The notes below the pieces were generated by a model that was not told where the DNA came from, made no database searches, and saw only the letters and a program-made list of their open reading frames with translations. Positions 5,365 through 13,993 of a DNA stretch of 64,000 nt are shown one piece after another (the first letter of the stretch is position 1; each line of letters starts with the position of its first letter). This DNA comes from Nitrospiria bacterium (GTDB taxonomy: Bacteria > Nitrospirota > Nitrospiria > DASWJH01), in NCBI GenBank assembly GCA_036397255.1, contig DASWJH010000097.1, positions 1-64,000 on the forward strand. Direction: 5' to 3'. The position numbers and the translations under genes were made by a program.

Positions 5365-5759
5365 TCTGTTGAAGTTTTTCCTTGGAATCTTTGGGGGGGT
5401 AGATTGTCAAAATACCCAAAGGGTAACTGCTCTAATGGGCGCTGTCAAGAATTGAGGTTAAAAAGGTCAAAGGGATAAAACCCAAGTGGAGGGTCGTATT
5501 TGAAAAATCCCAGGTCTGTTTGTTTTTTTTGAACACGAACGCTTCAGGCGGGTTGGAGGGTTCCCAAAAGGTAATAGTTAGGTTTTCCTCTGAAAAGGCC
5601 AATCAGTCCTTGGGGTAAATTAGGGGATTAACCAGGGAGGGCAGGGTGCTGGTTAATTCCAATTTACCCCAAAGCTGAAGGTGGTGTCATTGTCGATTGA
5701 TTCCACACCACTGGTTTGCCCTGGGAAAAAACCAAGGGCAAAAAAAGAGTTGAAATTTT
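5365..5759. other. Intergenic region with a long inverted repeat
   Basis: I see no credible gene in these 395 bases. The region contains a 21-23 base imperfect inverted repeat (5611-5671) and a smaller hairpin near 5717-5745 (TTGCCCTGGG pairing with CCAAGGGCAA). Neither is followed by a T run on either strand in the way expected of an intrinsic terminator. Confidence 0.5.
5611..5671. repeat. Long inverted repeat (hairpin)
   Basis: The arm TGGGGTAAATTAG...ATTAACC (5611-5633) pairs with GGTTAATTCC...TTACCCCA (5651-5671) across a 17-base G-rich loop, with about one bulge and one mismatch. It lies between the 56-residue membrane protein gene and the GT39-like gene, both on the minus strand. It could be an RNA processing or termination structure, or a relic of a small transposable element. 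No T tract follows it. Confidence 0.6.
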
Positions 5760-5930
5760 TTAGGCCGCCTTTTTTAAAGGAATTGGCATTGCCTCTTCGG
5801 GCACTTCCTGTTCCATTTCTTGGGCCGGTGGGTTTGTCGAAAACAGAGAATACCCAAAAATAAAAGCCCAGGCAAGCATACCAAGCCCCGCGGCAACGGC
5901 GTATAAAATATCCCCAGGTAAACTAAACAT
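5760..5930 (-). CDS. Small single-pass membrane protein (56 aa)
   Basis: I chose the start at 5930 because the ATG has a good Shine-Dalgarno site (AGGAGACACC then ATG); longer upstream readings lack one. The product has a hydrophobic segment at about residues 8-31 (ILYAVAAGLGMLAWAFIFGY) and an acidic, proline-rich tail ending in KKAA. I do not recognise the family. It lies directly downstream of the NtrC-type regulator gene, behind a strong sigma-54 promoter match and two palindromes that look like enhancer sites. It is therefore probably a direct target of that two-component system. A role as a small membrane regulator or a stress peptide is possible but unproven. Confidence 0.65.
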   Translation of the reverse strand: MFSLPGDILYAVAAGLGMLAWAFIFGYSLFSTNPPAQEMEQEVPEEAMPIPLKKAA

Positions 5931-6018
5931 GGTGTCTCCTCTCTTTTGGTTTAATCCTTCTTTCTTTATTTCTTCAAATTTGGCCCCCAAAATCTGGGGA
6001 CGTCTCATCGTTTATACA

Positions 6019-6047
6019 GTTATAAGAGCAAGAGATGTGCCAGTCAA
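6019..6047 (-). promoter_or_regulatory. Possible sigma-70 promoter overlapping the sigma-54 site
   Basis: On the minus strand TTGACT (6047-6042) is separated by 17 bases from TATAAC (6024-6019), a fair housekeeping-type promoter. It overlaps the sigma-54 element base for base, so the two polymerase forms would compete. The sigma-54 reading is preferred because of the neighbouring regulator. Confidence 0.4.
6027..6043 (-). promoter_or_regulatory. Sigma-54 (RpoN) promoter of the 56-aa membrane protein gene
   Basis: Reading the minus strand, CTGGCAC is followed by five bases and TTGCT. This matches the -24 (GG) and -12 (GC) consensus TGGCAC-N5-TTGCW exactly, apart from the usual G after CAC. 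It sits about 100 bp upstream of the gene's ATG and about 180 bp downstream of the stop of a sigma-54-dependent activator gene. It was the only intergenic match of this quality that I noticed in the window. Confidence 0.75.
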
Positions 6048-6189
6048 ATAAAGTCAATAAAAATCTTAAGTTTTTCAATAGGTTAAAGCTATTTTGAAAA
6101 AAATCTAAGGAGAAGGTGATTGGTGGTTTTAAACCGCCTTTTTGGGCTAATTTGAGTGAAATAGCTTAAAAATTAAAGGGTTATGGTAT

Positions 6190-6223
6190 GGCTGAAAACA
6201 GCCAAGGATGGTTGAAAACAACC
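6190..6223. promoter_or_regulatory. Two tandem palindromes, probable enhancer (UAS) for the NtrC-type regulator
   Basis: GGCTGAAAACAGCC (6190-6203) and GGTTGAAAACAACC (6210-6223) share the pattern GGYTG-N4-CARCC and start exactly 20 bp apart, two helical turns. They begin right after the regulator's stop codon and lie about 150-180 bp upstream of the sigma-54 promoter. That is the usual arrangement of dimer-binding sites for bacterial enhancer-binding proteins. They lack a following T run, so they are poor terminators. Confidence 0.65.
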
Positions 6224-6224
6224 G

Positions 6225-13567: not shown

Positions 13568-13993
13568 TTAGCAGTAATGGGAAGGGGCAGGCCGGATGTA
13601 AAGCATGCCGGAAAGTCCATGGTTGGAGGCAGCCTGAAATCCTAACTTTTCGTAAAAATCAATTTTATCCCGTGTGAACAGTGAAAGGACTTGGATAGGG
13701 GTCAACTTGGGGTGATGAATGATTTTTTCCAACAAGAGCCGACCAAGACCTGCTCTCTGGTGATTCGGGTGAATCACCACGTCGTATATCATCGCTCGAA
13801 AGGTAAAGTCCGTTAGGACCCGTGCAAACCCGACCAGCTTTTCATCGGCCCAAACAGAAAAGACCATGTGGGTATGCTGAAGCATTTGGACAATTTCCTC
13901 GGGGGTTCGATCTTTGGCCCAAGGGGCATGTTTGAATAAAGATTGAAGTTTGACAGGATTTAAATTTTTCTCTTCCTTGATGTGGTAGGTCAT
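13568..13993 (-). CDS. GNAT family N-acetyltransferase
   Basis: This 141-residue protein has the acetyl-CoA binding motif A, VVIHPNHQRAGLGRLLLEKII (about residues 73-93), preceded by the VGFARVLTDFTFRAMIYDVV strands, and ends with YEKLGFQAAS, which is typical of GNAT motif B. The acceptor is unknown. It lies after the HIT protein gene on the same strand with an 81-bp gap and may be co-transcribed with it and thioredoxin reductase. Confidence 0.82.
   Translation of the reverse strand: MTYHIKEEKNLNPVKLQSLFKHAPWAKDRTPEEIVQMLQHTHMVFSVWADEKLVGFARVLTDFTFRAMIYDVVIHPNHQRAGLGRLLLEKIIHHPKLTPIQVLSLFTRDKIDFYEKLGFQAASNHGLSGMLYIRPAPSHYC

Follow-up and report, generated by a model that had tools for sequence, protein, structure and literature searches.

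We consider it highly likely that the window, by which we mean the whole stretch of 64,000 nt analyzed here, carries a genuine sigma-54 transcription circuit, a level of confidence that excludes the role of the small protein it controls. The circuit consists of a sensor kinase, its NtrC-type partner regulator, a pair of enhancer dyads with a weaker third site, a sigma-54 promoter and a gene for a 56-residue membrane protein (Table 1). In kind it is ordinary; its target is an orphan, and a paralogous counterpart of the circuit lies on another contig of the same genome (G000:C26). The sequence-only reading of this region, which had proposed an enhancer, an RpoN promoter and a tiny membrane protein, is strongly supported in these parts by the three-site layout of the paralogous locus and by the presence of RpoN in the genome; its description of the circuit as “self-contained” is not supported, as the same family of sites stands before the C26 promoter.

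Table 1. Features of the circuit in the window. Site centers are given relative to the promoter.
Feature	Position	Strand	Remarks
Sensor kinase gene, 667 aa	7583..9586	-	Pfam: dCache-HAMP-HisKA-HATPase; partner of the regulator
NtrC-type response regulator gene, 453 aa	6225..7586	-	Pfam: receiver, sigma-54 AAA+ (GAFTDA loop), Fis-type HTH
Enhancer dyad GGTTGTTTTCAACC	6210..6223	-	center -174
Enhancer dyad GGCTGTTTTCAGCC	6190..6203	-	center -154
Third, weaker activator-type site GGCGGTTTAAAACCACC	6122..6138	-	center 87.5 bp upstream; matches GGYKGWWWWMMRCC
Sigma-54 promoter TGGCACATCTCTTGC	6028..6042	-	exact TGGCAC-N5-TTGC match
Predicted 5' leader of the small gene	5931..6016	-	about 86 nt, with the promoter spacing placing the start near 6016
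Small gene, predicted single-pass membrane protein, 56 residues	5760..5930	-	includes stop; ATG at 5930

Regulator, activator sites and promoter in the window

The kinase gene and the start of the regulator gene overlap by 4 bp, and the receiver, sigma-54 AAA+ and Fis-type HTH domains of the regulator all score above their Pfam cut-offs, which identifies it as an NtrC-type protein. The AAA+ loop reads GAFTDA instead of GAFTGA in the window regulator, in its paralogue and in every orthologue of the class that was read. Since GAFTDA is among the loop variants expected to retain activator function in a survey of Desulfovibrio (PMC4641369) and the NorR variant G266D still opens promoter complexes (PMC2941729), this loop is no objection to an activator role. 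The best-scoring curated model, AtoC, was not reached by the regulator (469 bits against a cut-off of 714), nor were the PrsK-PrsR models of the PEP-CTERM system (regulator 412.8 against 502.6 bits, kinase 96.5 against 300). Our search of the literature found no published target for the GAFTDA regulator family of this class, and a search with the motif letters likewise gave nothing useful.

Two GGYTG-N4-CARCC palindromes had been described after the NtrC-type gene at a spacing of 20 bp, and we find exactly these: both dyads are perfect, they lie 20 bp apart from start to start, and the first begins 1 bp past the regulator stop codon. The differences between the two dyads are confined to paired positions (T-A to C-G, in both arms), which is the pattern expected from selection on the dyad. 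When the 294-bp gap was shuffled 20,000 times with its dinucleotides preserved, a similar pair arose in 7 cases, and a search of the 3.35 Mb genome with zero mismatches found no second such pair. The window holds one other match to the motif, a single site at 13621; by chance, 0.18 would be expected. While the enhancer pair of the sequence-only reading stands as far as the two dyads are concerned, the third site, an imperfect match to the motif, had been overlooked.

The promoter lies downstream of the dyads, as had been claimed, with the invariant GG and GC in place (the string read on the minus strand is CTGGCACATCTCTTGCT). Of the 20,000 shuffled versions of the gap, 4 held an exact promoter. 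Genome-wide, the exact pattern has 6 matches in 3.35 Mb compared to 8 for the reversed control, so the match does not by itself exceed chance and draws its weight from its position. The genome has one match for rpoN, so RpoN is encoded. For IHF, inspection by eye showed a single loose match in the stretch from enhancer to promoter, to which we gave no weight. Elsewhere in the genome (L112, at G000:C92:10284), the sigma-54 promoter TGGCACCTCTTTTGCTCTTTTA has a start region near-identical to that of the small-gene promoter; it drives a small secreted protein and has a dyad TCCTGT-N10-ACAGGA 155 bp upstream.

The paralogous locus and relatives in the class

Contig C26 carries paralogues of both the regulator (69% identical) and the kinase (62% identical), which sit in an operon with their own sigma-54 promoter TGGCATTCCCTTTGC in front. 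Upstream of this promoter are GGCTCTTAACCACC and GGTGGTTTTCCACC, 20 bp apart, plus GGTTGAAAAAAACC, the counterpart of the third site of the window. The site centers are at -184, -164 and -87, so that, compared with the window, the pair is displaced by exactly 10 bp while the third site stays in place. The C26 pair has 4 mismatches to the pair pattern of the window, a closeness that 5000 shuffles of the region upstream of the C26 promoter did not once reach; five other sigma-54 promoters tested in the genome have 8–10 mismatches. A relaxed pair pattern with up to 3 mismatches occurs at two places in the genome, the window and C26, with none for the reversed control, but this pattern was composed with knowledge of both loci and the shuffle test at C26 is the independent part of the comparison. 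The scan for further dyad pairs near sigma-54 promoters, which had been suggested as a route to the regulon, accordingly yielded one more place, and only with the relaxed pattern. The relaxed motif stands close to a full sigma-54 promoter match at these two two-component loci only. The strict single motif occurs at 22 places in the genome, compared to 6 for the control; a regulon defined by it was dropped, as none of the 15 matches fetched (of the 22) has a credible sigma-54 promoter nearby.

The arrangement on C26 bears on a reading in which the dyads have no connection with the promoter and instead form hairpins in the RNA, at the 3' terminus of the regulator transcript. Their start directly behind the stop codon and their good fold as RNA (z -5.5) would suit this reading, which we nevertheless hold to be highly improbable: no U-tract follows the dyads, the first C26 site is incapable of a proper hairpin, and C26 keeps both the 20-bp spacing and, to whole helical turns, the distance to the promoter. 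The same arrangement also raises the question of which protein is the main activator of a promoter that would itself be real. The C26 operon promoter has the same site family and layout, and the recognition helices of the two paralogous regulators are near-identical (TRNTLRYRIQKY vs. TRSTLRYRIQKF), which would allow the C26 regulator, or a receiver-less activator encoded there, to take this part in place of the adjacent regulator. We judge this somewhat unlikely, as adjacency favors the window's own regulator and the receiver-less activator has a different HTH (INYTTLCRKISLY). The adjacent regulator is our preferred activator, and the recurrence of the site family at C26 means that either regulator may act on both promoters, by sharing or cross-activation.

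The receiver-less sigma-54 activator (L063, 7127-8347, minus strand) lies in the same operon, ahead of the paralogous pair. The C26 promoter falls at the first ATG of its ORF, which makes a start further into the frame probable. A 65-residue putative small lipoprotein with an MGC lipobox (L063, 8572-8769, minus strand), for which Pfam gave no match, ends just upstream of the paralogous enhancer.

Across the class the kinase-regulator pair is widespread, with the gene order either way. In the 14 orthologous class regions fetched, no activator sites or sigma-54 promoter adjoin the regulator, and they hold no comparable small gene. A search for the dyad pair in class relatives gave 3 other matches with one mismatch, which is not above the reversed control, and a search of 98 genomes with the relaxed pair gave scattered matches, mostly with 3 mismatches. 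No genome nearer than class level was available, so intergenic conservation could be tested against the paralogue only. The sequence-only reading had looked to relatives for conservation of the palindromes and the small gene, an expectation that was half disappointed: class relatives show neither the dyad pair above chance nor the small gene, and conservation is supplied, for the sites, by the paralogue in the same genome. At four loci in other genomes of the class (L010 near 2983, L011 near 1351, L016 near 1352 and L023 near 3033) different NtrC-type regulator genes are followed after 134–182 bp by a sigma-54 promoter and then by a small exported Ala/Lys-rich protein. These proteins are unrelated in sequence and the layout is the same as in the window, which marks the layout as a recurring solution.

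The small membrane protein gene

The small gene appears genuine from its sequence features. Its codon score of +13.1 lies above the mean for genes in the window (+8.6) and far from that of shadow ORFs (-2.4), none of which (0 of 62) scores as high. The good ribosome-binding site claimed for it, AGAGAGGAGACACC, is present ahead of the ATG, and a single-sequence structure model predicts one helix over residues 5–32 with a pLDDT of about 90 in its core, in keeping with the single-pass protein first described. An 82-residue reading of the ORF was rejected, as its ATG (6008) would lie about 8 nt past the predicted transcript start, too near for a ribosome-binding site.

The protein had been called unrecognised, and so it remains: Pfam, NCBIfam and PDB sequences gave no match, and no homologue was found at E 0.01 among 396 genomes of the phylum. 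The suggestion that the same protein might stand beside this kinase-regulator pair in other genomes was therefore not borne out in that set. Matches up to E 1 occur in 25 of 58 genomes, the best outside its own genome at E 0.003 over 28 residues, which we read as chance. The closest genomes compared are of the same class only, so the absence of the protein there says little about its age.

This lack of a protein homologue, together with the known sigma-54 promoters of the small RNAs GlmY and GlmZ (PMC4987338), would agree with a leader or small RNA as the product that counts. The good ribosome-binding site, the strong frame-specific codon score and the clean predicted membrane helix make this very unlikely, and the leader stem-loop is weak, with a fold z of -1.7 that is not significant. 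We therefore retain the 56-residue protein as the product. Scanning the window for Rfam families and tRNA genes gave no match. A long hairpin (window 5610-5672, -32.3 kcal/mol, z -5.8) lies between the small gene and a glycosyltransferase-like (PMT) gene; it has no U-tract and is a possible terminator or repeat element.

Proposed mechanism and comparison with known systems

The genes, domains, sites, spacing and paralogous layout are read from the sequence, while we infer binding, phosphorylation and RpoN dependence. The membrane sensor kinase, of the dCache type, would phosphorylate the partner regulator, whose activated dimers would bind the two dyads, two helical turns apart and some 150–180 bp upstream, and probably also the weaker site that lies about 87 bp ahead of the promoter. 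The bound regulator would then assemble its AAA+ ring and remodel the RNA polymerase-sigma-54 complex at TGGCACATCTCTTGC, which would turn on the gene for the 56-residue membrane protein. Before its own operon, the paralogous regulator would recognize the same type of site, which probably makes the two pairs parts of one small shared network.

A local arrangement of this kind is familiar from Desulfovibrio, where genes for enhancer-binding proteins are usually co-located with their own sigma-54 target and regulons comprise 1–4 operons (PMC4641369). The local regulons of Desulfovibrio vulgaris resemble the window in that the activator gene adjoins its own target and GAFTDA is accepted, and for the activator DVU0569 the promoter lies downstream of the activator gene, as here; they differ in their targets, and their sites were reconstructed across species, whereas those of the window were compared with the paralogue only (PMC4641369). 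At norVW, likewise, the AAA+ hexamer of NorR is seeded by three enhancer sites ahead of a single sigma-54 promoter, but NorR senses NO through a GAF domain while the window regulator has a phosphorylated-type receiver (PMC2941729).

The enterobacterial ZraS-ZraR-ZraP system is also alike, with a kinase and an NtrC-type regulator that use a sigma-54 promoter to switch on a neighboring gene for a small envelope protein, and ZraP feeds back on ZraSR, going by the title of Appia-Ayme 2012 (cited in PMC4987338). The window proteins fall far below the curated ZraR and ZraS models (regulator 384 bits against a cut-off of 760, kinase 174 against 479). ZraP is a zinc-binding periplasmic chaperone with a divergent promoter, whereas the small protein is a single-pass membrane protein encoded downstream on the same strand, and its want of a Pfam or NCBIfam match gives no sign of a ZraP-type target. 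The E. coli protein MgrB, a 47-residue membrane protein from its kinase's own regulon, acts on that kinase (PMC8404706); its likeness to the small protein is one of size, a single helix and regulon position, with no sequence relation seen.

As to the function of the small protein we can only guess, favoring either a modulator of the adjacent kinase that acts in the membrane or an envelope-stress effector; feedback on the kinase, as by ZraP and MgrB on theirs, is only a proposal by analogy. A fuller account, in which a class-wide kinase-regulator pair acquired a lineage-specific small protein that it lacks elsewhere, as a component for feedback, and the two pairs were wired together through the shared three-site layout, seems to us unlikely. 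The small protein is a candidate kinase modulator. The two paralogous two-component systems would have kept their enhancer layout while the genes they control differ, and we offer GGYKG-N4-CMRCC, as a pair 20 bp apart with a further site about 87 bp upstream, as a candidate binding motif for the GAFTDA family.
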